DNA of 64,000 nt, from assembly GCA_003138515.1 (NCBI GenBank), contig PLGG01000079.1:1-64000 (forward strand). The letters run 5' to 3'. Origin of the DNA: Acidobacteriaceae bacterium. GTDB taxonomy: Bacteria > Acidobacteriota > Terriglobia > Terriglobales > Acidobacteriaceae. Position 1 is the stretch's first letter; the number at the start of each line of letters is the position of its first letter. The position numbers and the translations under genes are program-made. Shown here piece after piece: positions 22,845-36,241 of the stretch. The notes under the pieces were generated by a model, which was not told the origin of the DNA, made no database searches, and was given only the letters and a program-made list of their open reading frames with translations.

Positions 22845-22912
22845 ACAGTTGTCAGTTCTCAGTTGTCAGTTTTCAGTTCTCGGTTCACAGTTCGTAGTTC
22901 TTAATTTCCGGC
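22845..22912. repeat. 7-nt period array (GTCAGTT-like units)
   Basis: Heptamers GTCAGTT, CTCAGTT, GTCAGTT, TTCAGTT, CTCGGTT, CACAGTT, CGTAGTT begin within a few bases of the stop codon of the omega-like gene. Confidence 0.8.
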
Positions 22913-24741: not shown

Positions 24742-24885
24742 GCTACAGGCTGGAGTTTAGAGCTAAGAGCTAGGAGCAAAAAGCAAATAGCCAAAAGCCA
24801 AAAGCTAAAAGCCAAAAGCCAAAAGCTAAAAGCTGAAAGCTGAGACCTGAAACCTGACCAGTGACAACTGACGGCTGAACACTGC
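24742..24885. repeat. Long 7-nt period array (GCCAAAA/GCTAAAA units)
   Basis: About 18 heptamers in register: GCCAAAA, GCTAAAA, GCTGAAA and so on, drifting into CCTGAAA, CCTGACC, AGTGACA, ACTGACG. This drift shows that the GCTAG-type and GTCAGTT-type arrays are one continuous family. Confidence 0.85.
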
Positions 24886-24926: not shown

Positions 24927-25793
24927 GTGGCGGTTCTGGCGGTGCAGCAGATCCGGCGCATGCGGGGCGGGGCGCAGGGCCAGTTGATGCTGGGCGCGGA
25001 CGGGCACGTGTACGTGGTGAAGTTCCAGAACAACCCGCAGCACACGCGGGTGCTGGCCAACGAGCTGATGGCCTCGCGGCTGGCGGCGGCGGCGGGACTG
25101 ACGGTGCCGGAGACCGATCTGGTGGAGGTCTCGAGCTGGCTGATCGAGAATACGCCGGAGCTGGAGATCGACATGGGGCGGACGCGGGCGCGCTGCCTGC
25201 CGGGATTGCACTTCGGGTCGCGCTTTGCCGGGGGCACGATGCCGGGCCAGGTGGTGGACTACCTGACCGAAGAGCATCTTGCCGAGTTGAAGAACCTGGG
25301 CGAGTTCGCCGGCATCCTGGCTCTGGACAAGTGGACGGGCAATGCCAACGGGCGGCAGGCGGTGTTCACGCGGCGGCAGCGGGAGAAGCGCTACAGGGCC
25401 GTCTTCATCGATTTCGGGTACTGCTTTCACGCCGGGGAGTGGCGCTTTGAAGATGCGCCGCTGCGCGGCGTCTATTACCGCAACGATGTGTACCGGGAGA
25501 TCACGGGATGGGAGTCATTTGAGCCGTGGCTGACGAGACTTGAAAACCTGCCGGCGGAGACGATCTGGGATGCGGCCAACGGCGTTCCCCCCGAATGGTA
25601 TGGCGGCGACCAGAGTGAGATGGAAGCGCTTGTCGAAAAGCTGCTTGCGCGGCGGAGCCGGATCAGGGAGCTGATCGAGGCGTTTGGGAACTCGGATAGG
25701 AGGCCGTTTCCGAAATGGGGAGGGAGGGGAGGTGGGTGGCGGGAAGGGGCTTGGAAGGGTGGCCGATGGGGGGATACGATGAGGGTGAATTGA
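24927..25793 (+). CDS. HipA-like kinase family protein
   Basis: A 288-residue protein resembling the HipA-like (HipA_2) kinase fold. The N-terminal part has GADGHVYVVKFQNNPQHTRVLANE, with a candidate ATP-binding Lys. The catalytic loop candidate is LALDKWTGNANGRQAVF, where HipA proteins carry D-x4-N-x-D-R, so the last Asp is replaced here by Asn. The metal-binding motif is FIDFGYCF. A Gly/Arg-rich tail ends the protein. The start is a GTG at 24927. It precedes a DUF3037 gene, a known recurrent pairing. Its targets are unknown, and whether it is a toxin-like or regulatory kinase cannot be told. Confidence 0.78.
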   Translation: MAVLAVQQIRRMRGGAQGQLMLGADGHVYVVKFQNNPQHTRVLANELMASRLAAAAGLTVPETDLVEVSSWLIENTPELEIDMGRTRARCLPGLHFGSRFAGGTMPGQVVDYLTEEHLAELKNLGEFAGILALDKWTGNANGRQAVFTRRQREKRYRAVFIDFGYCFHAGEWRFEDAPLRGVYYRNDVYREITGWESFEPWLTRLENLPAETIWDAANGVPPEWYGGDQSEMEALVEKLLARRSRIRELIEAFGNSDRRPFPKWGGRGGGWREGAWKGGRWGDTMRVN

Positions 25794-25797
25794 GGGA

Positions 25798-25987
25798 CAG
25801 CTTCTAGCTCCTAGCTTCCAGCTATTTTCGTGCGGACGCAGGGAGCGGAGAGTTTGAGTGAGAGGAGATCGGCAGTGAGCTTGGTGCTCGACGGCCGAAG
25901 CCGAGGGCTGAAGCTGAAAGCTGGGAGCTTGAAACTGAGGGCTGAAAGCTAGCAGCTAGAGGCTAGAGGCTAGAAGCTAGAAGCTAA
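25798..25987. repeat. Inverted-repeat element built of 7-nt units
   Basis: The left arm 25798-25823 (AGCTTCT, AGCTCCT, AGCTTCC) is followed by ATTTTCGTGCGG. The right arm 25904-25987 has heptamers GCTGAAA, GCTAGCA, GCTAGAG, GCTAGAG, GCTAGAA, GCTAGAA. The element fills the whole gap between the HipA-like and DUF3037 genes. Confidence 0.8.
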
Positions 25988-25990
25988 ACC

Positions 25991-26926
25991 ATGGAGAGCG
26001 GAAGCCATCGTCGGGAGTGCGCATTTCAACTGCTTCGGTATGTGCCGGACGCGGTGCGGAACGAGTATGTGCACATCGGCGTGATCCTGCGCGACACCGG
26101 CACGGCGGACGAATCTGGGAAGGTCGAGCCGGGGAAGGTCGAGCCCGGGAGGGTCGGGCCCGGGAGGGTCGAGGTGCGCTTTACGCGCGACTGGCGGCGG
26201 GTGAGGTGCCTCGATCCCGACGCCGATACGGCGCTGCTCGAAGGGATGGAGAGCGAGCTGCGGCGAAGGCTCCAAGAGGGGGCGGACCTGGGGGGAACGA
26301 AACTGGAGGCGACGGACCTTGAGGCGGCGGGAGGGCGGCTGATGCGGATTCTCGGAGAATCGCTCTCGCTGAACGTGCAGATGACCGAGCCCAAGGGCTA
26401 CCTGGCCGAAAGTGTTCCCGCGGGAATGGAAGAGCTGATGCGGGTCTACGTGGACCCTCCGCCGCGGGAGCGGGCGCCGAGGCTGAGCGGACGCGCGGCG
26501 ATCCAGTCACGCATGCGCGCGGAGTTCGAGCACGCCGGGGTGTGGGATCTTCTGAGAAAGAGAATCGCCGCTTCGGAGTACACGCGGGCGGGCGATCCGT
26601 TGCGCATCGACGTGGGCTACCGGCCCAACGGGGTGGTGCGGATGTTCCAGGCGGTGAGCTTCGAACCGGGGCTGGAGATGGCCAAGGTGCTCGCGTTTTC
26701 AGCGGCCGCCTTGCGCGCCGGCGTGGAGCGCGTGGAGAAAGCCGAGCTCGAGTTGACGGCGGTGATCGAGCCGGCGGCGCGCGTGGGAGCGACCGAGGAG
26801 GAACCGGAGCGGCTGGAACTCTACCGCTTCGGAGTGGAGACGATGGAGGAACATCGGATTCGCGTGCTGACCACCTCGGATATGGGCCGCGTAGCGGAGA
26901 CGGCGCGGCGCGAGCTGCACGTGTAA
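25991..26926 (+). CDS. DUF3037 domain protein
   Basis: A 311-residue protein. The N-terminus ECAFQLLRYVPDAVRNEYVHIGVILRD is the DUF3037 signature (YVPD..R.E.VNVGV-like). Residues ~43-62 come from four 15-bp units (26117-26176), giving a G-K/R-V-E/G-P repeat absent from the family, an apparent recent in-frame expansion. The C-terminal half has LSGRAAIQSRMRAEFE and DPLRIDVGYRPNGVVRMFQAV. DUF3037 genes are often neighbours of HipA-like kinase genes; the biochemical role is unknown. ATG start at 25991. Confidence 0.8.
   Translation: MESGSHRRECAFQLLRYVPDAVRNEYVHIGVILRDTGTADESGKVEPGKVEPGRVGPGRVEVRFTRDWRRVRCLDPDADTALLEGMESELRRRLQEGADLGGTKLEATDLEAAGGRLMRILGESLSLNVQMTEPKGYLAESVPAGMEELMRVYVDPPPRERAPRLSGRAAIQSRMRAEFEHAGVWDLLRKRIAASEYTRAGDPLRIDVGYRPNGVVRMFQAVSFEPGLEMAKVLAFSAAALRAGVERVEKAELELTAVIEPAARVGATEEEPERLELYRFGVETMEEHRIRVLTTSDMGRVAETARRELHV
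26117..26176. repeat. In-frame 15-bp tandem repeat inside the DUF3037 gene
   Basis: Four 15-bp units (GGGAAGGTCGAGCC-like) at 26117, 26132, 26147 and 26162, each encoding a Gly-Lys/Arg-Val-Glu/Gly-Pro-like pentapeptide. Confidence 0.85.
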
Positions 26927-27262
26927 AGAGCCGGAGCGCGGGAAAGGGTCCGGAGAACGCACCGGAGCGCGGCTCTAAGTTATTTTCTTTCAATGCAAAA
27001 GAGGATCCTCGCAGAACCCGAAAATATTTTTGTGAAGTTTGCCGATCATTTATGGGCTACGCGGTAGGATCAATCCTGTTGATGGATTTCAGGGGTATCG
27101 CGGCCGTTGCCGGGAGCGATTGAGTCAGGATTGGCTCAAAATTTGTTCCGAGTTTGCTTCGGGCGGACGGCTGGCGAATCACTGAATTTTCGGAAAAGGC
27201 ATGGCCATGGGCCGTGCCTTTTTGTTTTTGAAGGCCTTTTCGTTTCTTGAAGGAAGGTGCGC
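26927..27262 (+). promoter_or_regulatory. Leader region upstream of the phage-derived module
   Basis: About 335 bases without a gene. It includes the most A/T-rich stretch nearby (about 26985-27060), a plausible promoter zone, although no clear -35/-10 pair was found. A strong terminator hairpin then lies only 40 bp before the portal start. That layout fits attenuation or antitermination of the module. No terminase gene or remnant was recognised here. Confidence 0.4.
27195..27229 (+). terminator. Strong intrinsic terminator just upstream of the portal gene
   Basis: A 12-bp stem (AAAGGCATGGCC / GGCCGTGCCTTT, one G-U pair) with a 3-nt ATG loop, followed by TTGTTTTT. It ends 33 bp before the portal start codon, leaving little room for a separate promoter. 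Confidence 0.8.
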
Positions 27263-28537
27263 GTGAAGGTAGGCGAGCAATTACGGGAGATGTGGCGGCA
27301 GGCCCGCCGCGGCAGGCAGGCCGGAGACGGTGGGGAGTCCCGGCGGGTGGAGCTAGAGGCGGGTGCGGAGGCGGAGCGCAAGACGCTGGCGCTGCCGGCG
27401 ATTCTGAGCCCGGTGCAATTCCCGGGCAAGCATCTGCCCAAGCCGACGCCGATGAACCTGCGCCGGTTTGCGGAGACACCGGTGGTGCGGCGGGCGATCA
27501 ACGTGATCAAGGACCGCATCGCGGCGATGGACTGGCAGATTCGAGTGCGTCGTGGCGTGCGGCCCGAGGAAGTGGCTTTTGCGGCGCGCAAGTTGCAGGC
27601 GCTGCGCCGCGCGCTGGAGGAGCCGAACCCGGCCGACAGCTTCCGCACGCTGGTGGAGCAGGCGATCGAGGACGCGCTGACCGGCGGCTTTGGAGCGATC
27701 GAGATGGAGCCGACGGGCGATCCGGAGCGGCCGGCGATGCTGTGGCCGGTGGACGGAGCGTCGATCCGCGTCAACGCCGGGTGGGACGGGGACGAGGACA
27801 CACCGCGCTATGCGCAGGCCGTGCCGGGACAACTGGAGTCGGGCGCGGTAGAGCTGCTCGACCGGCAGTTGATGTACATCCGGATGAATCCGCGCAGCTT
27901 TACTCCTTTCGGGCTGGGGCCGCTGGAGGTGGCGTTCGAGACGGTGAACCAATTCCTGAGCGCGAATCGGTTCGCGGGAAAATTGGCGGCAAATTCGGTG
28001 GCGCAATACGCGCTGTGGCTGAACGAGGCCACGCCGGCGCAGCACGACCGGCTGATCCGCTGGTGGCAGGACGAGATCGAGGGCACCGGGCGCGTGCCGC
28101 TGATCTCGACCGAGCAGAAGCCGGAGGTGCTGCGCTTCGCGCAGGGAACGGACGCGGACCTGAGGCTGGCATGGCAGGAATTTTTGATCCGGATGGTGGC
28201 CAATGCATTTGGGCTGCCGCCGCTGATGCTGGGCCTGGAAGCAGACGTGAATCAATCGACGGCGTCGGAGATGGCCGACGAGGCATTCCGCGGAGCGATT
28301 TCGCCGCTGGCCATGCTGGTGGCCGGGCACATCACGCGCGACCTCTTTGCCAAGTGCATCGGCTGGCGGGAGTTCGAGTTTGTCTTCAACGAGCTGAGCG
28401 CGCGGGACGAGCAGACGGAGCTGCAGGTGCAGGTGCAGTTGCTGCAGGCCGGCGTGCTGACGATCGACGAAGTGCGGGCGATGCGAGGACTGGCACCGCT
28501 GGGGCAGGAGAAACAGCCGCTAGCTGCTAGCTCCTAG
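27263..28537 (+). CDS. Phage portal protein (HK97-like)
   Basis: A 424-residue protein. Portal signatures are FAETPVVRRAINVIKDRIAAMDW near residue 70, ALTGGFGAIEMEPTG, FGLGPLEVAFETVNQFL, and the C-terminal RMVANAFGLPPLMLGLEADVNQSTA followed by GAISPLAMLVAGHITRDLF. Portals form the dodecameric DNA gate at the capsid vertex. The GTG at 27263 is favoured over one at 27257 because AGGAAGG lies 6 nt upstream. The last codons and stop lie inside a 7-nt repeat element (C-terminus LAASS). No terminase gene precedes it. The frame is intact. Confidence 0.88.
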   Translation: MKVGEQLREMWRQARRGRQAGDGGESRRVELEAGAEAERKTLALPAILSPVQFPGKHLPKPTPMNLRRFAETPVVRRAINVIKDRIAAMDWQIRVRRGVRPEEVAFAARKLQALRRALEEPNPADSFRTLVEQAIEDALTGGFGAIEMEPTGDPERPAMLWPVDGASIRVNAGWDGDEDTPRYAQAVPGQLESGAVELLDRQLMYIRMNPRSFTPFGLGPLEVAFETVNQFLSANRFAGKLAANSVAQYALWLNEATPAQHDRLIRWWQDEIEGTGRVPLISTEQKPEVLRFAQGTDADLRLAWQEFLIRMVANAFGLPPLMLGLEADVNQSTASEMADEAFRGAISPLAMLVAGHITRDLFAKCIGWREFEFVFNELSARDEQTELQVQVQLLQAGVLTIDEVRAMRGLAPLGQEKQPLAASS

Positions 28538-28660
28538 CCGCTAGCTCATCGTGCGGCGTGAGGCTTGGAGATGAGGCAATCTCTTGAGCCAGGTAAGGAA
28601 CCTGGGAATTGGGCGGCAGTAGAGAAAAGCTGGCAGCTAGGAGCTAGTAGCTAGCGGCTG
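28517..28660. repeat. Inverted-repeat element between portal and protease genes
   Basis: The left arm 28517-28547 (CTAGCTG, CTAGCTC, CTAGCCG units) overlaps the portal stop codon and is followed by ATCGTGCGG. The right arm 28629-28660 (GGCAGCTAGGAGCTAGTAGC) is its complement. The same class of element occurs between ordinary host genes. Confidence 0.82.
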
Positions 28661-28677
28661 TGTTTGACGGAGCGAGC

Positions 28678-29178
28678 ATGCGACTGGAAGCGATGGCGGT
28701 AAAGATTCCTCATGTGGACAAGCACCCCAACCGGGTGCCCTTTGAGGGCGTGTTGACAGTGGTGAACGCGGCCAGCGACAGAGCGCCGGCGGGAGCGCGC
28801 GGGCACCGCGTGATGCTGACGCGCGAGGCGGCAGAGAAGGCGCTGGCATCGCTGGTGGGCATGGCCGTGGATTACCGGCCGGGATGGGACGGCCACGATG
28901 CGCGGCGCAAGATCGGCCTGCTGACCGAGGCCGATGTGGTCGGTCCGCGGCTGGTGGTGCGCGGTTACTTGTACGCCCGCGATTTTCCCGAGGTGGCGCA
29001 GGCGATCACGGCGCATGCCCCGGAATCACTGGGCATGAGTTACGAGCTGGCCGATGCGCGCGTGGAGGATATGCGGGCCGAGATATGGAAGCTGACCCGA
29101 GTGACCTTTACCGGAGCGGCGGTTCTGCTGCGGGAGAAGGCAGCTTACCGGGCGACAAGTTTCCGCATGGCAAGTTAG
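28678..29178 (+). CDS. Capsid maturation (prohead) protease-like protein
   Basis: A 166-residue protein between portal and scaffold candidates, the usual place of the prohead protease. A strand/helix pattern PFEGVLTVVN...GHRVMLTREAAEKAL precedes GHDARRKIGLL (candidate His73) and ESLGMSYELADARVED (candidate Ser117/Ser121). This resembles the His...Ser arrangement of phage maturation proteases, but the family match is by position and pattern only. The ATG at 28678 has a GGAG site; a GTG at 28660 in the preceding repeat is less likely. Confidence 0.6.
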   Translation: MRLEAMAVKIPHVDKHPNRVPFEGVLTVVNAASDRAPAGARGHRVMLTREAAEKALASLVGMAVDYRPGWDGHDARRKIGLLTEADVVGPRLVVRGYLYARDFPEVAQAITAHAPESLGMSYELADARVEDMRAEIWKLTRVTFTGAAVLLREKAAYRATSFRMAS

Positions 29179-29299
29179 CGGAAGACAGCGAAGTTAGCGG
29201 ATCTAGTGGATCTGGCGAAGTTAGCCAAAGGAGTAAGCCGGGCGGTAAATGAGTAAGTAAGTGAGTTAGTAAATCAGCGAGTAAGAACGTGAACAAAAA

Positions 29300-29325
29300 G
29301 GCTCCGCTCGCGGAGCCCTTTTGTT
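29300..29325. terminator. Intrinsic terminator inside the phage-derived module
   Basis: A 7-bp perfect stem (GGCTCCG / CGGAGCC) with a CTCG loop, preceded by five A and followed by CTTTTGTTT. It could stop transcription on either strand. It sits between the protease-like and scaffold-like genes, 52 bp before the latter. Confidence 0.75.
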
Positions 29326-29376
29326 TGACAGTGAACCGCCGCAGTGAGCAATTCGCGGAATCAGGAGAGGAAAAAC

Positions 29377-29775
29377 ATGGAACAAGGGGAAACGAACATC
29401 GTGGAGCGGCTGGAAGCCGCGACGACAGCGCTGGAAAGCGCGCTCTGCCGGTTGGAAGAGCGGCAGGGTGAGCTTTCCGGCGAGGTGGAGAGGATCTTGG
29501 CGACCGTGGAACAAAGCCGCCGCGAAACCGAGCTGGCGGAGAAGCTGGCCACGGTCGAGCGGGAGCTGGCCGAAGTAAAAGCGGCGTCGACGCAGAACGC
29601 ACTGAACCCGCTGCGCCGCACCATGCCCGCAGCCACCGCTGAGATGCTGGCCAAGCATGGCATCGGCGATGGCCCGGTGGATGTGCGCTCGCTGGATGCG
29701 GCCTTGTCCGGACTGAGCCTGGAGCAGCGCATCGCGGTCAAGACGCAACTGCTGCGGGCCGGTGCGATCTCGTAG
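29377..29775 (+). CDS. Coiled-coil protein, scaffold candidate of the capsid
   Basis: A 132-residue, mostly helical protein. Residues ~8-75 form a charged coiled coil (ERLEAATTALESAL, ERQGELSGEVERILATVEQS, EKLATVERELAEVKA). A Pro-containing linker (NPLRRTMPA) and a compact C-terminal helical part follow (LEQRIAVKTQLLRAG). Its size, coiled-coil content and position immediately before the major capsid gene fit a scaffolding protein; no sequence family was recognised. The ATG at 29377 has AGGAGAGG upstream and was preferred to a GTG at 29344. Confidence 0.6.
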   Translation: MEQGETNIVERLEAATTALESALCRLEERQGELSGEVERILATVEQSRRETELAEKLATVERELAEVKAASTQNALNPLRRTMPAATAEMLAKHGIGDGPVDVRSLDAALSGLSLEQRIAVKTQLLRAGAIS

Positions 29776-29938
29776 AAGCAGCTTCTAGCTACTAGCTTCT
29801 TGAGCGCAGAGGGTAGCCGGCAGGCGAAGCGCGATCAAAGTGAAAGATCGCGGACAGCGCGCCGGCGAATGATCAATCATCAACGCCAGATCAGGCACGA
29901 ACAAGCTGGGAGCTAGGAGCAAGAAGCTAGCAGCTAAG
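29776..29938. repeat. Inverted-repeat element between scaffold and capsid genes
   Basis: The left arm 29776-29801 (GCTTCTAGCTACTAGCTTC) and right arm 29904-29938 (AGCTAGGAGCAAGAAGCTAG) are complementary around a ~100-nt spacer. It starts directly after the scaffold stop codon. Confidence 0.8.
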
Positions 29939-29969
29939 CACGGCCCCATGGAGGGGGTGGAGAGAATCT

Positions 29970-30938
29970 ATGAACGCAACCTTTGCAGACATTCATGCGG
30001 CAGCGGATTTCATCGGGCCGGGCGCTATCGAAGTTCCGCTGTATCAGACGGAGATCTTCGACATTTGCCGGCGGTCAAGTTCATTTGGCCAGCGCATCAA
30101 GCAGGTTCCGGCGACCGGACATCCGTCGCGCTTCTTTGAGGAGACGGCGATTCCCAATCCGGGGACAGCGGGCTTTGTGAATCCGCGCAGCATCAATCCC
30201 ACGGTGGTGAGCCCGACGCGCGTCGAGCTGAGCGTGCCGCTGAAAGCGGTTGTGGCGCAGATCAACTACAACCTCTTCGACATCGAGCTGGGCGACCAGC
30301 AGAAGCAGTTCGCCTATCTGCAGGCCAAGGACCTTGTGGATACGGTGAGCGGCGTGATGGTGGCGCACGACGTGGCACTGTGGAACGGCAACGACACCAG
30401 CTTGAGCGCGCCCACGACCACGCAGTACATGGGATGCGCGGCGCAGATCGCCGCCGGAGGCAACTCGGTGACCGTGACCACCTCAATGAAGATCGTGGAC
30501 ACGATCAAGACCACAGTGGCGCAGATGGTGGCCAACAACGGCTATCACGTGCGTCCCACGGCGGTCTATGCCAACCCGGTTCTGTTGGACCTGATCGACC
30601 AGGAGATGAAGTCGGAGTACAACGTGGTTCTCAACACCGACCAGATCACGGGCGGCTTCCGCGTGAAGATGCTTTCGACGCAGGCCGGGGACATACCGTT
30701 GATTCCGGATTGGAGCCTGAGTTACACGGGCACGCCGGGAAGCGGCAATGCAGTGCTTCCGGCCTACATCGTGACCGAGGATCTGATCGAGTATCACTGG
30801 CTGGGCGATCCCACGCCGCGCGTCTTCCAGCTTGGACTGCCGAATTCGCTGACCCACCAGTATGTGGCGGTCAAGTTCGGCGCTCCAGTGGTGAAGGGCG
30901 CGAACTTCGCCCATTACCAGGTGCTGGTCGACCGGTAA
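29970..30938 (+). CDS. Phage major capsid protein (HK97-fold type)
   Basis: A 322-residue protein. The N-terminal region has VPLYQTEIFDICRRSSSFGQ, then a beta-hinge-like stretch (ATGHPSRFFEETAIPNPGTAGF). The P-domain-like region shows VELSVPLKAVVAQINYNLFDIELG. Later come DTIKTTVAQMVANNGYHVRPTAVYANPVLLDLID (spine helix and strand), VLNTDQITGGFRVKMLST and a C-terminal VAVKFGAPVVKGANFAHYQVL. This is the usual order in HK97-fold coat proteins. The start ATG has GGAGAGA 5 nt upstream. The frame is intact and its composition is like the host's. Confidence 0.82.
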   Translation: MNATFADIHAAADFIGPGAIEVPLYQTEIFDICRRSSSFGQRIKQVPATGHPSRFFEETAIPNPGTAGFVNPRSINPTVVSPTRVELSVPLKAVVAQINYNLFDIELGDQQKQFAYLQAKDLVDTVSGVMVAHDVALWNGNDTSLSAPTTTQYMGCAAQIAAGGNSVTVTTSMKIVDTIKTTVAQMVANNGYHVRPTAVYANPVLLDLIDQEMKSEYNVVLNTDQITGGFRVKMLSTQAGDIPLIPDWSLSYTGTPGSGNAVLPAYIVTEDLIEYHWLGDPTPRVFQLGLPNSLTHQYVAVKFGAPVVKGANFAHYQVLVDR

Positions 30939-30944
30939 ACGAAA

Positions 30945-31062
30945 ACAGGGATCAGGGATCAGGGGTCAGGGATCAGTCTGAAGTGAAAACGAGTTTGCAG
31001 TCAGCTCCTGAGGCTTTAACTCGCAGATTGATCGCTGACCACTGATCATTGGCGCCTGACAA
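30945..31062. repeat. 7-nt period array (CAGGGAT units) with diverged inverse arm
   Basis: The left arm 30945-30978 has CAGGGAT, CAGGGAT, CAGGGGT, CAGGGAT. The right part 31030-31062 carries the approximate complement (CTGACCACTGATCATTG). It fills the gap between capsid and connector genes. Confidence 0.75.
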
Positions 31063-31079
31063 CTTTGAAAGGATGCGCG

Positions 31080-31703
31080 ATGGCATATCTGGAGCCAGCG
31101 GACTACACGAACTATGGATTGCCGGCCGGGACCACGGCAGACTGGATTACGGCGGCGACGGCCTTGATCAACAGTTACTGCAGGCGGCCGGATCTGAACG
31201 TGATTCAGTACACGGAGCGGCTGCGCGTAACGGCGGGGGCGCAGACCGTGCGGCTGAGCTATCTGCCGTTGGCCCCGCTGACGCCGGCGACGACGCCGAT
31301 GGTGAGCCTGGAAGGACGCTATGCAAGGCCCCGGCGCGGGGAGATTCCACAGGAGCCGCTGATCGAGATCGCATGGGCGTTTGCGCTGCCCGGGCAATGG
31401 ACGTCGATCGATGCCACGCTTGTGGACTTCGACCCCAACACCGGGGAGCTGACGCTGCCGTGGAATGTTCTGGGACTGCCGTTCAACGAAGTGCAGGCGA
31501 CTTACACGGCGGGCCTGGCGGCGATCGGCGACGACGTGAAGTCGGCGTGCGCGCAGATTGTGCGCAATGCGCAGGCGACGCCGGCGCTGAACGCGAGCAT
31601 GAGCAGGATCGACACGATGCAAATCAAGTATTTTTCAAGTTCGCTGATCGATGAGACGGTGCAGGCGTGGCTGAATCCGTACGTTGCGAACAGGCTGGGG
31701 TGA
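31080..31703 (+). CDS. Head-tail connector (adaptor) protein
   Basis: A 207-residue protein. The N-terminal EPADYTNYGL...WITAATALINSYCRRP resembles the helical start of gp6/YqbG-type connectors (a short helix plus 'I..YC.R'). A central beta region follows (TERLRVTAGAQTVRLSYLPLAPLTP), then VQATYTAGLAAIGDDVKSACAQIVRNAQATP, typical of the C-terminal helical part. These proteins bind beneath the portal and open the path to the tail. The ATG at 31080 has AAAGGA upstream. It starts a run of tightly packed genes. Confidence 0.72.
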   Translation: MAYLEPADYTNYGLPAGTTADWITAATALINSYCRRPDLNVIQYTERLRVTAGAQTVRLSYLPLAPLTPATTPMVSLEGRYARPRRGEIPQEPLIEIAWAFALPGQWTSIDATLVDFDPNTGELTLPWNVLGLPFNEVQATYTAGLAAIGDDVKSACAQIVRNAQATPALNASMSRIDTMQIKYFSSSLIDETVQAWLNPYVANRLG

Positions 31704-31706
31704 GCG

Positions 31707-32141
31707 ATGAGCGATACGGCGCCGCGTAACCCGCGGGGCGCGCCGCAGATGCTGGCCGACGCGCTGCTGCGCAGCGCATCGGGTACGACGGCCCTTCTGC
31801 GCGTGACCGGCACGAACACGGATACGAGCATGTCGGAGGTGGGCTTGGTGGCGACCACGTTCGCCGACGTTCCGGTAAGCCCGGTGGTGATGCGCAAGCT
31901 GCGGCCGACGTGGCAGGAGCGCGGCGAGTCGAAGTGGGAGCTGCTGGTGTCGGCAACGAGTGTGGAGCAGCAGATCAACACTCTCGATTTGCCGTCGGCA
32001 CAGTCTCTATTCGCCATGACTTTGGCGGTTACCGTGGCCGGGCAAGACTATCTGATTGAGTCGATCGCTTCCAATGAGGCGTTCGGCCAGGTGTATCTCT
32101 ACCGGCTGCTTTTGCGCGAGGCACGGCAGCAGGCGGTGTAA
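31707..32141 (+). CDS. Phage-module protein, neck or head-closure candidate
   Basis: A 144-residue protein starting 3 nt after the connector stop. The middle has a beta-rich pattern: GTNTDTSMSEVGLVATTFADVPVSPVVMRK cut by short turns, then KWELLVSATSVEQQINTL. The C-terminal half has AMTLAVTVAGQDYLIESIASNEAFGQVYLYRLLLREAR. The size and position suit a head-closure or stopper protein, but no family was recognised. Translational coupling to the connector is likely. Confidence 0.6.
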   Translation: MSDTAPRNPRGAPQMLADALLRSASGTTALLRVTGTNTDTSMSEVGLVATTFADVPVSPVVMRKLRPTWQERGESKWELLVSATSVEQQINTLDLPSAQSLFAMTLAVTVAGQDYLIESIASNEAFGQVYLYRLLLREARQQAV

Positions 32142-32158
32142 CCGCGCGAGGAGCATCG

Positions 32159-32644
32159 ATGCAGAATGCGAAAGATTCTTTTTATATGGCGTTGCGCACG
32201 CGGCTCACCGAGATCAATCCGCAGCGGACGATCATGGTACGTGGCACCGTAAGGCCGGGAATCCTGGTGGAGGAATCAGAGGCTCCATTCAGCCAGTTCC
32301 CCAGCGACGTGTTTGTGCTGCGCTGGCTGGGCCTGGCTGTCGATCTGGACCTAGCATCGACGATGACGGGCGAGCAATGCGAAATCGTCTACCAGACGTG
32401 CGGCACACAGAGCTTCGGCGGGCTGGACCGCGGCCGAACCTTGAGCGCGATGGACGGGGAATTGATGGCGATGATTCAGCCCTTCTACACACCGAAGCTG
32501 AATTACGCCGCCACACCGCCGGCCGCCATGCTGACGCAGGTTTTCTGGGATGAGCCGGTGTTCTCGCCCATCGTTACCCAGCGCGACCGACTGAGCCGCA
32601 GCGCGACGGTGTTGGTTTACAGCTACCAGGAGCAGGGGGAGTAA
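32159..32644 (+). CDS. Phage-module protein, tail-completion candidate
   Basis: A 161-residue protein. Its features include MALRTRLTEINPQRTIMVRGTVRPGILVEE near the N-terminus, FVLRWLGLAVDLD, ALMAMIQPFYTPKLNY-like LMAMIQPFYTPKLNY, and a C-terminal RSATVLVYSYQEQGE. The order after the connector and head-closure candidates, and its length, fit a minor tail/tail-terminator protein. The ATG has a GAGGAG site. It is coupled to the next gene with no gap. No confident family. Confidence 0.58.
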   Translation: MQNAKDSFYMALRTRLTEINPQRTIMVRGTVRPGILVEESEAPFSQFPSDVFVLRWLGLAVDLDLASTMTGEQCEIVYQTCGTQSFGGLDRGRTLSAMDGELMAMIQPFYTPKLNYAATPPAAMLTQVFWDEPVFSPIVTQRDRLSRSATVLVYSYQEQGE

Positions 32645-33619
32645 ATGGCAGCAACTTGGTTTTCCGCTCCGGCGCCGATGGCGCGAAGGGTGCGTGCTTT
32701 CTTTGCGCCGGTGAATCGCGGCGCGCAGACGCCCGTTCTTTTCGATCCGTCGGAACAGGACCGGTTTAGTCTCGATGTTCCACTGGCACCTTGGATCAGC
32801 CTGGGATGGGTGCAGGATTTTGTGCGCAAGACGACGAGTAAGTCTGCGGCGCTGATGACCGGAATTCCCGCAGCGGCGCTCGAACAGGTGCGCGAGACCC
32901 TCGAGGCGCAGGTAGGTCTTCAATTTCTAAGCTGGACGAAGTTGACGATGGGTCTGGCTACCGGATCGCAACATATGAACATCCTTGCGCCGGCGATTGG
33001 CGCGGCTCCTGCAGCCGATGGAGCACAAGCATCGCCCGCAGTCACACCTCAAAGCGGTTCGACGAGCACATCGATTCTGCTGACGCTTACGGACGCGGCT
33101 AAATTCACACCCGGCGCGATCGTTGCTGCGGATGTGGATTACACCGGGCAGACCGGCTATGTGGGCACGCCGGTGGCCGGAGCGTATGTGCGCCAGGCGC
33201 TCACGGATGTGGACTACGTGCGGCGCGTAACATTTAACGTCGCGCTAGTGTCGCAAGTTACCGCGACCGGGCTGACTCTGGCCGAGCCGTTGCCGGGCGG
33301 CGCCCCCGCAACGGGCGCCAAGGTGCAGGCAGTGACCGGATTCGTCGATCGAGAAGGCGGAAGCTTCTACCAAGAGTGGTCGGGACTCTTTGTGATGGAA
33401 GGCAGCCAGGGAGAGAGAGTCTTCTTCCACTATCCAAGACTGCAAGCTATAACCGGAGCGGAGGAGACTAATACCCCGCTCAATCCAAAAAATCAGAGCG
33501 GACATTCGCGTGTTCTACTCAAGGCTCAGTTTCTGGCGTTGCCGGTGACAGACCCATTGGATGGAGAACGCGTGGTATGTTACCGGAGCTTTCTGCCAGC
33601 GGCAAACGCGCTTGTATAG
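32645..33619 (+). CDS. Phage-module protein, tail-tube candidate
   Basis: A 324-residue protein starting at the base after the previous stop. It shows an alternating beta-rich composition (STSILLTLTDAAKFTPGAIVAADVDYTGQTGYVGTP in short strands), an Ala/Thr/Gly-rich middle, and a C-terminal block SRVLLKAQFLALPVTDPLDGERVVCYRSFL. The context, between the tail-completion candidate and the hub, suggests the tube or a structural tail subunit; no motif proves it. The intact frame and Shine-Dalgarno coupling support expression. Confidence 0.5.
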   Translation: MAATWFSAPAPMARRVRAFFAPVNRGAQTPVLFDPSEQDRFSLDVPLAPWISLGWVQDFVRKTTSKSAALMTGIPAAALEQVRETLEAQVGLQFLSWTKLTMGLATGSQHMNILAPAIGAAPAADGAQASPAVTPQSGSTSTSILLTLTDAAKFTPGAIVAADVDYTGQTGYVGTPVAGAYVRQALTDVDYVRRVTFNVALVSQVTATGLTLAEPLPGGAPATGAKVQAVTGFVDREGGSFYQEWSGLFVMEGSQGERVFFHYPRLQAITGAEETNTPLNPKNQSGHSRVLLKAQFLALPVTDPLDGERVVCYRSFLPAANALV

Positions 33620-33659
33620 TGCGCGGCAATAAATCTAAGTTACCAGACTGCGAGTTGCG

Positions 33660-35969
33660 ATGAAGATACAAATCCAAAGGCAGGATTACACGGCTGCGTT
33701 CGACTCCGTGCGTCCATTGACCATCAAGCGCAAGCTGAACGCACCGTCTGTCTGCGAGTTATGGTTGAGCCTACCAGTCAACGGCAGTCTCGCAACGCCA
33801 GCGCGCTTTCAATCTATTTCGGTGACCGGCGATGACGGGACAACTTACTTCACGGGGTATATCGCTGTAACTCCCTTGCCAGAGTATGCGGGAATGGGCC
33901 TTGAAGGGCCACGCTACCGGCTGGCGATTCAGGCCGTCAGCGATGAGATTTTGTTGGACCAGGTGCTGATGCCGCCCAGCGCCGGATTGGTCGAAGAGGA
34001 TGCGGGGACGTTGCTCGCCGCCCTTGTGGCTCACACTGGATCGACATCGCTGCGGACGACTTCACTGAATACTCTTGTGGGGAACTTTACTCCGGAGCCG
34101 GGAGCAAGTTGGAGCAAAAGCGCCGGAGAGGCGGCGGGCATGGCACGGGCGGCATATCGTGCGCAGAGCGGCGCAATCACGCTGTCCGCAGTACAGGCGA
34201 CGGTGCATCCTTTGAACGAAACCGATGGCAGCCTGAACTTGGGTAACCTGGCCATGACGGCAAGCGTTAAGCGCGCGCTGGCCAACGATGTTACCGTTTG
34301 CGGCGAGAATGAGCCGGCAGCCTATGTTACGGAGTACTTTCTCGGCGACGGAGCGACAACACAGTTCAATCTGGCAGTTGAGCCATACTTTCCCGCGACT
34401 TCAAAATCCACAATCATCAGCGAGCTTTTTAACGAGCCACAAATCAACGATGCGGTGTGGGAGTTTTCCGAGGGAACGGGCTACCTTACGATTGGCCCCG
34501 GCGGCCTGGCGATGAACGGTGGCAGCGGGATCGACGGGCAGACGCTGCTGACGTGGATCGATCCAATCGAAATGGGCGGAACGCTGCTGCTTGAAGCAGT
34601 GGGAGTGAAACTGTCTCCCGGGAGCACCGGCATCGTGGCGGGATTCTTTACCGACCTCCTGACTGCGGCGAATTGCACGGCGGGATTTCAGGCTACGGCG
34701 CAACAAGGCACCGGGTCCGTGACGTTGCAGCCAGTCGTGGAGGGCACTCCAGCCGGAATCACGTTTGCATTGAACCCAGCCAACCAGTACACGCTCCGTG
34801 TTCGCGTCCATTGTCCGGAGTGTAATCGCGCGCAAGCAATGTATTACTCCTTTGGAGATCAGGGGCTCATAGGCGCCGGCGGTGAATGGGCCATCGCTTC
34901 TGGAAAGATCCAGATGGAGATTCAAGAATTTGTCAACGGCGTCGGCGCAACTCCTGTCACGCTGTATGACGGGGCTGTTACCTACCTGCCTGGCTCGTGC
35001 CTGGTGGTGCCGGCCAGCAGTATCAATTTAATTGGAACGATTCGCGCCGTAAGCCTTACGAACTTGGGGTCAGGCTGGGTTGTAAGTACCCCATCGGGCG
35101 GCGGACCGTATACGCGAAGGGTTGGCACAACCGCCGAAGCCGCGGAGTGCCATCTGGAGCGCACTGGCAAGGTGACGTTTTACACCGGATACACCCCGGC
35201 TGCAGGCGAGCAGATTGCAGTGAGTTATCGTGCGGTTGGGCGGGCCGTGGGCCGCGCGGTGAACTCGACCAGCCAACAGGCGCTGGCACACGCCGGCTCG
35301 CCAACAGTGGCCGCATGGATCGGTTCAGTCAGTCGTCCCCAGGCACGCAGCTCCGCGGATTGCCGCAACGCCGCACTGGTGATGGAGCAGGCCGCAGCCA
35401 GCGTGAGCGCGCTTTGGAGTGGAACGTACAAAGGGAACCGGATGAGCTTTGCAGCGGATGTTTGGCCCGGCGATGCACTGCTGCTGAACGCACCCTCGAC
35501 AAATCTGAATGCGGAAGTCGTGGTGCGCACAGTCAAAGTAACTTACCGCGCCAGTTACCCTGACTTAGTGGCATACGAGATCACCTTTGCCAATGACTGG
35601 GCAGATGACTTAGCCATCAAGACCAGTGCAGCGGTGCCAGCCAACACCTGGTTGCCAGCTCCCATTGCCCCTACAGTGCTCGCCAATCTTGCCGGACTTA
35701 CGGTGGCCGCGATGAACGGGAGCACAGTTACGGTGAATACCGGAGTGACACCGCCAAGCGGCGGCGGGTTCGAGATTCGATTGCGCGATTTTGCTTTCAT
35801 GCCCGGCGAGGATCCGACGCTGGTGTTGCGCGGCTCGCAGCCGAGTCTTACGTTTTCACGCATTTCGGCGAGCGATCGGTTCTACATTCGGATGTACGAT
35901 GGTTCGACGCCGCCAAATTATTCGGAGTTTTCGACGGCGTTGTTTATCAATCTGCCGTTGAGCTCTTGA
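33660..35969 (+). CDS. Large tail hub/tail-tip protein with lectin-like insertion
   Basis: A 769-residue protein. The N-terminal ~200 residues (MKIQIQRQDYTAAFDSVRPL; FTGYIAVTPLPE; RLAIQAVSDEILLDQVLM) look like the beta-barrel hub domains of phage baseplates. After YVTEYFLGDGATTQFNL an inserted region (about 255-450) has a jelly-roll/concanavalin-like pattern (GGTLLLEAVGVKLSPGSTGI). Hub-like sequence resumes (GRAVGRAVNSTSQQAL; MSFAADVWPGDALLLNAP; RTVKVTYRA). The C-terminal ~120 residues form a fibronectin-like sandwich. Probably the cell-contact tip. No tape-measure gene precedes it. Confidence 0.6.
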   Translation: MKIQIQRQDYTAAFDSVRPLTIKRKLNAPSVCELWLSLPVNGSLATPARFQSISVTGDDGTTYFTGYIAVTPLPEYAGMGLEGPRYRLAIQAVSDEILLDQVLMPPSAGLVEEDAGTLLAALVAHTGSTSLRTTSLNTLVGNFTPEPGASWSKSAGEAAGMARAAYRAQSGAITLSAVQATVHPLNETDGSLNLGNLAMTASVKRALANDVTVCGENEPAAYVTEYFLGDGATTQFNLAVEPYFPATSKSTIISELFNEPQINDAVWEFSEGTGYLTIGPGGLAMNGGSGIDGQTLLTWIDPIEMGGTLLLEAVGVKLSPGSTGIVAGFFTDLLTAANCTAGFQATAQQGTGSVTLQPVVEGTPAGITFALNPANQYTLRVRVHCPECNRAQAMYYSFGDQGLIGAGGEWAIASGKIQMEIQEFVNGVGATPVTLYDGAVTYLPGSCLVVPASSINLIGTIRAVSLTNLGSGWVVSTPSGGGPYTRRVGTTAEAAECHLERTGKVTFYTGYTPAAGEQIAVSYRAVGRAVGRAVNSTSQQALAHAGSPTVAAWIGSVSRPQARSSADCRNAALVMEQAAASVSALWSGTYKGNRMSFAADVWPGDALLLNAPSTNLNAEVVVRTVKVTYRASYPDLVAYEITFANDWADDLAIKTSAAVPANTWLPAPIAPTVLANLAGLTVAAMNGSTVTVNTGVTPPSGGGFEIRLRDFAFMPGEDPTLVLRGSQPSLTFSRISASDRFYIRMYDGSTPPNYSEFSTALFINLPLSS

Positions 35970-36013
35970 ACGGAAGCACGAGCGAAAACGATGTATTCAA
36001 CGGAGTCCGGTGG

Positions 36014-36241
36014 ATGCTCATGATGAATGAATTCGAGGCCCAGGTACTGAGCGATCTATGTGTACTGAAATCGCAGATGACCGGACTGTTGGGCGACGGC
36101 AACGGCGGCCGTCTGGCGGAACTGGAGCGGCGCATGGACCGCCATGAGCAGAACTGGCAGCGCGCCAAGGGATTCCTCGCGGCTGTGAGCGTACTGTTCG
36201 CCGTGATCGAAGTGGCCGTTGAGGCGTGGCACCGGCACTAG
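36014..36241 (+). CDS. Small membrane protein, XhlA/holin-like candidate
   Basis: A 75-residue protein. A charged N-terminal helix (EFEAQVLSDLCVLKSQM) and an arginine/glutamate coiled segment (GGRLAELERRMDRHEQNWQR) precede one membrane segment (AKGFLAAVSVLFAVIEVAVEA). This order matches hemolysin XhlA-type proteins found in phage lysis cassettes, but no endolysin is nearby. The ATG at 36014 has GGAG 8 nt upstream; a TTG overlapping the hub stop codon is the alternative start. Last gene of the phage-derived module. Confidence 0.6.
   Translation: MLMMNEFEAQVLSDLCVLKSQMTGLLGDGNGGRLAELERRMDRHEQNWQRAKGFLAAVSVLFAVIEVAVEAWHRH

Follow-up and report, generated by a model that had tools for sequence, protein, structure and literature searches.

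A conserved terminator-like hairpin before the portal gene of a phage-derived capsid cluster in Acidobacteriaceae suggests control by read-through

A phage-type gene cluster next to purE

The window, the whole stretch of 64,000 nucleotides analyzed here, is contig C18 of genome G000, and the best matches to its portal protein are loci labelled Acidobacteriaceae, including Terracidiphilus. Its phage-type genes (27257-36241) are all co-directional and are preceded on the same strand by genes for a HipA-like kinase and a DUF3037 protein (table 1); purE, which starts at 36219, follows the module, and purK comes next. Two hairpins interrupt this arrangement, hairpin 1 at the junction of the DUF3037 and portal genes and hairpin 2 at that of the protease-like and scaffold-like ORFs. 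The portal gene named in the initial annotation is borne out by its Pfam match, and its start looks likelier to be the GTG at 27263, behind AAGGAAGG, than the GTG at 27257. The scaffold name given there does not go beyond position and a coiled-coil look, the ORF having no Pfam or PHROG family and only weak NCBIfam matches far under the cut-off. No family match was found for the protease-like ORF in Pfam, PHROG or NCBIfam, and a search by sequence for a solved relative of the capsid-like protein returned none; a structure model of the latter was unusable (mean pLDDT 31).

Table 1. Coordinates of the genes and sequence elements at the portal locus, with the basis for each assignment
Feature	Position	Strand	Basis
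HipA-like kinase gene, upstream neighbor	24927..25793	+	Pfam HipA_2 1.8e-10; PADLOC PDC-M66A 2.5e-9
DUF3037 gene, partner of the HipA-like gene, directly 5' of the leader	25991..26926	+	Pfam DUF3037 3e-15; PADLOC PDC-M66B 5e-6, short stretch
45-bp promoter-like block	27038..27082	+	conserved in 54/78 non-identical loci; promoter role putative
Leader, block to hairpin 1	27083..27192	+	unconserved among relatives
Hairpin 1, terminator-like stem-loop	27193..27223	+	fold and conservation in relatives
T tract of hairpin 1	27219..27229	+	read from sequence; overlaps the A-T end of the stem
Portal protein gene	27257..28537	+	Pfam Phage_portal 1.6e-53; PHROG portal
Protease-like ORF	28660..29178	+	position alone
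Hairpin 2, core stem-loop	29300..29317	+	fold; T-rich stretch 29318-29325 after it
Scaffold-like ORF	29377..29775	+	position and coiled-coil look only
Capsid-like ORF	29970..30938	+	position; identity 76-87% across 28 aligned relatives
Head-tail adaptor gene	31065..31703	+	phrog_442 1.6e-14
Five further module ORFs	31707-32141, 32159-32644, 32645-33619, 33660-35969, 35966-36241	+	colinear in relatives

The last module ORF encodes 91 amino acids and looks holin-like by eye, part of it resembling a coiled coil and a single hydrophobic stretch lying close to the end; it is 76-91% identical in 14 relatives. Intergenic heptamer tandem repeats of several sequence types occur at 22845-22901, 24761-24841, 25940-25988, 28515-28547 and 30946-30976, and an inverted repeat around 28519-28655 consists of two heptamer arrays facing each other. 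Searches of the window found no tRNA or tmRNA and no Rfam family at gathering score; five weak Rfam matches near the hairpins were judged to be chance.

The portal is present in 28 of 36 genomes of the genus (own genome included) and in none of 24 genomes of other families. Across the family it was found in 121 of 200 genomes and 54 of 79 genera, 7 of the 121 by weak 24-29% matches only. Regions downstream of the portal are colinear in 15 cases (one ends after the eighth gene), with purE next in 10 of 14, and dN/dS of the module genes lies between 0.037 and 0.168 (three comparisons, dS exceeding 1 in some), against 0.077 and 0.113 for purE. The gene set is usually single-copy, under purifying selection and mostly found at one locus before purE. 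Such selection and colinearity fit a domesticated prophage or a gene transfer agent (GTA); the phage-type portal, terminase and head genes expected of the latter are present and under purifying selection, with capsid, protease and scaffold assigned by position. Among GenBank phages a related portal was found in two records (one phage) at 26% identity.

A decaying prophage remnant without present function would account for the in-frame stops that interrupt about 14 of the 114 strong portal matches in the family, for some other matches lying in pieces, for the stops in 3 of 19 terminase matches and for genome G021, which has no portal match and two stops in its terminase match. We consider decay highly improbable given that dN/dS in the three comparisons is like that of purE, that the portals of the 28 genus genomes have no in-frame stops and that the hairpin stem has undergone compensatory changes (see below). 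In G021 a degenerate block is present, and the gene after it looks by eye like purE.

Among 21 IMG/VR contigs (L236-L256), 18 have the HipA-DUF3037 pair placed between the terminase and portal genes. The pair looks like cargo because in the other three (L247, L250, L255) neither gene was matched between terminase and portal; in most relatives the HipA-like gene is likewise cargo of the cluster.

Two hairpins, one of them conserved across the family

Both hairpins are where the initial annotation placed them, and each was more stable than all 200 of its shuffles. Hairpin 1 comprises 14 pairs and a loop of 3, followed by GTTTTTG, and with its tail reaches -22.5 kcal/mol (z -4.77); its stem ends 33 bp before the portal GTG at 27257, as had been noted. 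The core of hairpin 2 has 7 pairs and a loop of 4, is lengthened by flanking A-U pairs, reaches -17.8 kcal/mol (z -4.59) and, again in agreement with the initial annotation, precedes the scaffold-like ATG at 29377 by about 52 bp. A crude terminator scan of 20 kb returned 22 sites, near chance overall (shuffles 16.8 +/- 4.1); the two hairpins stand out by the stability of each and, in the case of hairpin 1, also by conservation. Neither is a common genome repeat, each pattern occurring once in the genome.

The initial annotation had asked for a comparison of both hairpins in relatives, and this separated them. We collected 109 portal loci, many of them on metagenome-assembled contigs, and set aside 11 in which the portal alignment began after residue 12; 78 of the remaining 98 have different upstream DNA, and 76 could be scored (L093 is short and L097 has unread bases). 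With an energy-based finder, a hairpin with a T tract lies within 160 bp of the portal start in 75 of these 76 non-identical loci, window included, as against 39 of 423 random windows, with medians of 28 bp from the start and -20.1 kcal/mol. In the sole miss, L047, part of the hairpin consists of unread bases; the score of L030 comes from a non-canonical hairpin, the canonical one lying further upstream. An earlier finder, which over-extended stems and was replaced, gave 61 of 78 loci and 33 of 342 random windows. Other module junctions carry a hairpin in only 3-15 of 43-73 loci, the exception being the scaffold junction (39 of 67).

Conservation extends to pairing rather than letters. Of the 75 loci, 70 entered a count of stem pairs: position 5 is TG in 35, TA in 25 and CG in 10; position 6 is GT in 28, GC in 26, AT in 13 and unpaired in 3; position 4 is AT in 65 and GC in 5. 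These stem and locus counts overstate the number of events because the relatives are not independent. In the wider family Acidobacteriaceae (65 loci, 3 unscored), a hairpin lies within 330 bp of a fixed portal anchor in 58 of 62 scored loci; 17 of the 62 repeat the first set, and among the 45 new ones it is found in 41. A rerun with slightly different windows gave 57 of 62; the opposite strand gave 16 of 62 and coding DNA upstream 17 of 61, and with a cut-off of -13 kcal/mol the count was 54 of 62 at the portal versus 5 of 61 in that coding DNA. A GGCATGGCC-type stem is found in just 37 of the 62 loci, so the hairpin outlives its letters. In an uncontrolled count, it was also found within 330 bp of the estimated start in 19 of 21 IMG/VR contigs with portals 54-83% identical.

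Hairpin 1 thus has, in the window and in relatives, the stable G+C-rich stem-loop and immediately following T tract of an intrinsic terminator, and we infer that it works as one. A role other than termination, as a 5'-end or processing element that stabilizes portal mRNA or tunes its translation, would suit a hairpin at a median of 28 bp from the start codon; we think it very unlikely, since such a role has no need of the T tract, which accompanies the stem in 75 of 76 loci.

Little room appears to be left for a promoter behind hairpin 1, as had been claimed for both hairpins: the gaps between hairpin and portal start are short, except that 14 of 75 measure at least 45 bp and 11 at least 60 bp, and a TAnnnT hexamer occurs in 2 of 75 gaps against a shuffled mean of 29.3. 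A crude scan of 20 kb for sigma-70-like promoters returned two, neither near either hairpin. The claim does not carry over to hairpin 2, where gaps are about 50-140 bp, mostly 50-75, and could hold a promoter. Hairpin 2 is real but lineage-limited: 39 of 67 loci have a hairpin before the scaffold-like ORF, 34 of them with a GGCTCCG-like stem, and 28 have none; in a deep clade it is present in 5 of 18 and missing in 13.

A promoter-like block before the portal and terminase operons

Upstream of hairpin 1, a 45-bp ungapped block is shared by 54 of the 78 loci and absent from 24. The hairpin begins 39-295 bp after the block's -10-like hexamer (median 86, 52 loci), the sequence in between being unconserved and often made up of heptamer repeats. 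The block differs from a plain sigma-70 promoter in that its TTGC and TAnnnT parts stand about 20 bp apart, and the promoter scan did not flag it.

It is not a signature of the portal only, since it also precedes an HTH gene and, as a variant, a terminase operon, and half-sites of it occur on a dispersed repeat. The HTH gene is mob_myst_A-like and has the portal-type block 5' of it in two genomes (L112:1501-1533, minus strand; L114 near 1088, plus strand); in L112 two ORFs follow it, one DUF5681-like and one with a TIR domain. The HTH gene occurs in 9 of 41 genomes and is not favored as the regulator. The dispersed repeat has a left end that resembles the portal block, with TTTGCMGATMATT and then CACAAT at the same spacing (L183-L193 in G022, L175-L182 in G000), and ten aligned copies are alike in further stretches over about 300 bp. 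In G022 the block model has about 59 matches at E <= 1, most of them to its first 16-20 positions only.

The distribution of the block bears on the best rival explanation, which is also plainer. On this view the HipA-DUF3037 unit, as a toxin/antitoxin-like defense pair, has to be expressed, hairpin 1 simply ends its transcripts and so keeps them out of the capsid genes, and the capsid operon is served by a promoter that has escaped recognition, either one overlapping the hairpin or one read by an unusual sigma factor. Of the 78 loci, 58 have a DUF3037 gene no more than 1.5 kb upstream, and the hairpin is present in 57 of these. The gene also occurs in 23 of the 24 loci that have no block, which this explanation suits; in a retron study, the HipA kinase is described, in the part of the paper available, as a toxin held by DUF3037 (PMC12548924). 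It fails, however, at the 12 loci that have at least 2 kb of upstream sequence and no DUF3037, all of which keep both hairpin and block, so that these two features go with the portal. The short and TAnnnT-depleted gaps also weigh against it, as does the terminase operon, which has a leader hairpin of its own with no DUF3037 before it. We regard it as rather doubtful.

Searches for the block, by pattern and with a sequence model, led to the terminase operon. On contig C26 of G000, a variant block is followed by a leader, a strong hairpin (GGGGCGACTCG..CGAGTTGCCCC, then TTTTCCTTTTCC), a 136-aa ORF, a 2570-aa ORF and the large terminase gene (phrog_2 6.4e-25). The 136-aa ORF is small-terminase-like by its place only. 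The 2570-aa ORF (L194:3860-11572, minus strand), between the first ORF and the terminase gene, contains a pectate-lyase-like domain and is tail-spike-like by guess. Over 16 terminase regions the variant block matches at 32, 32, 32 and 26 of 33 key positions in four, at 21-25 in eight and at 17-20 in four, the last being the level of 20 shuffles (17-20). A strong hairpin was detected by the finder in 9 of 14 terminase leaders and by eye in one more; four have none. In 12 of the 18 regions (L219-L226, L230, L231, L234, L235), HipA-DUF3037-portal, or what remains of it, comes just after the terminase gene; in L233 the portal is gone. The gene set is split in G000, G013, G006, G019 and G016, since their terminase region is without HipA-DUF3037-portal.

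The initial annotation had offered attenuation as one form of control. As an RNA switch, the leader would adopt a terminator or an antiterminator fold depending on a signal. A terminator does stand at the end of the leader, and the window's own leader pairs with the 5' arm of hairpin 1 better than its shuffles do (z -2.04). Such pairing is not kept among relatives, however: over 52 portal leaders the mean z is +0.61, which speaks against a general antiterminator pairing, and neither a conserved leader sequence nor an Rfam family at gathering score was found. The terminase leaders L194, L220, L227 and L228 have stretches that are alike between genomes by eye, including facing CTTCTTC / GAAGAAG, and possibly form a structured RNA, a point in favor of an RNA switch. 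On the whole we take RNA refolding to be a very unlikely means of control.

Proposed control and comparison with known systems

We propose that hairpin 1 terminates transcription and thereby holds a vertically inherited, phage-derived capsid operon off, and that read-through is mediated by a protein, a reading to which we give an even chance. In the window's genus, transcription would start at the block, roughly 120-390 bp 5' of the portal gene, cross the short unconserved leader and halt at hairpin 1, which only a termination-resistant polymerase would pass. Such resistance would most likely be conferred by a protein that is loaded at the block or close to it, as in Q-, AlpA- or GafZ-type processive antitermination; a protein is favored over an RNA switch because the leaders have no common alternative fold. 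In relatives that lack the block, transcription may arrive from upstream genes and meet the same stop. The polymerase that has passed hairpin 1 would also pass hairpin 2, which would act as an additional stop in some lineages. Since the terminase operon has a variant block and a strong hairpin of its own, a single factor might control it together with the portal operon.

Provided that hairpin 1 acts as a terminator and that no transcript begins after it, the capsid genes can be expressed only by read-through, which is what the initial annotation had claimed for both hairpins. The conservation of hairpin 1 (75/76 and 41/45) and the matching plan of the terminase operon support this at the portal, suggesting that the capsid genes are silent unless polymerase runs through a conserved stop; the case is weaker for hairpin 2, which 28 of 67 loci lack. 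We infer promoter activity of the block, termination in the cell and an antiterminator from these arrangements of sequence. A genome search of NusG-family genes identified no antiterminator gene and left three unlinked NusG-family leads only.

More speculatively, and less likely than not, the Acidobacteriaceae may possess a family-wide, vertically kept GTA-like element independent of the alphaproteobacterial ones, with a HipA-DUF3037 defense pair just upstream, in which head and terminase operons, even where apart, are switched together by one factor that loads at the shared block and passes the terminator before each. Such control would be convergent with lambda Q and with the Caulobacter GTA lock. 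In culturable soil Acidobacteria, the two leaders and one block would offer a handle with which to identify the factor and the condition of induction.

In the excerpts of papers on Acidobacteria available to us, the gene set appears only within a predicted-prophage cluster and is nowhere named a GTA. Cluster 153 of Eichorst et al. (2018, PMC5900883) includes a region of Terracidiphilus gabretensis S55 (contig 10, 700000-740000) that covers our locus L059 (716489-729769). The accessible portion of that paper describes the cluster as a predicted prophage and mentions neither terminators in leaders nor shared blocks nor inheritance as a single copy throughout the family. The pair upstream of hairpin 1 resembles the candidate HipA-DUF3037 defense pair PDC-M66 in having the same two families adjacent, the DUF3037 match being short; unlike PDC-M66, as far as the available text describes it (PMC12548924), the pair here sits inside a capsid gene cluster, and the likeness is one of genes.

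The plan of a promoter with a loading element and a terminator before late genes is that of lambdoid Q at PR'/tR' (PMC6606751, in the portion available), and here the block, with its putative promoter role, and the hairpin are both present. The features in common would be a promoter-proximal terminator within an untranslated leader before the late genes and a special DNA element at the promoter. The acidobacterial arrangement differs in comprising two operons, each with its own putative terminator, and in having no known Q gene; its promoter is putative, and a pause would be hypothetical.

The control proposed here also resembles that of the Caulobacter crescentus GTA, which involves GafY, IHF and GafZ (PMC11150451). 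As far as the available part of that study describes the Caulobacter cluster, both are chromosomal phage-derived capsid clusters in which read-through is needed (by prediction in our case), with a terminator, likewise predicted here, between the large terminase and portal genes and further promoters, putative here, elsewhere in the genome. The Caulobacter terminator consists of three 150-bp repeats after the first gene, and its promoter and its GafY/GafZ and IHF sites were tested. In the Acidobacteriaceae, by contrast, there is a single hairpin and a different block, in another phylum, with no known GafY/GafZ counterpart; the term GTA denotes likeness, not membership. Antitermination control of a domesticated capsid cluster has been demonstrated, in the literature available to us, for this one alphaproteobacterial GTA. 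If our reading is true, the Acidobacteriaceae would provide a second such cluster in another phylum, and placing virion genes behind a terminator would be a recurring solution.
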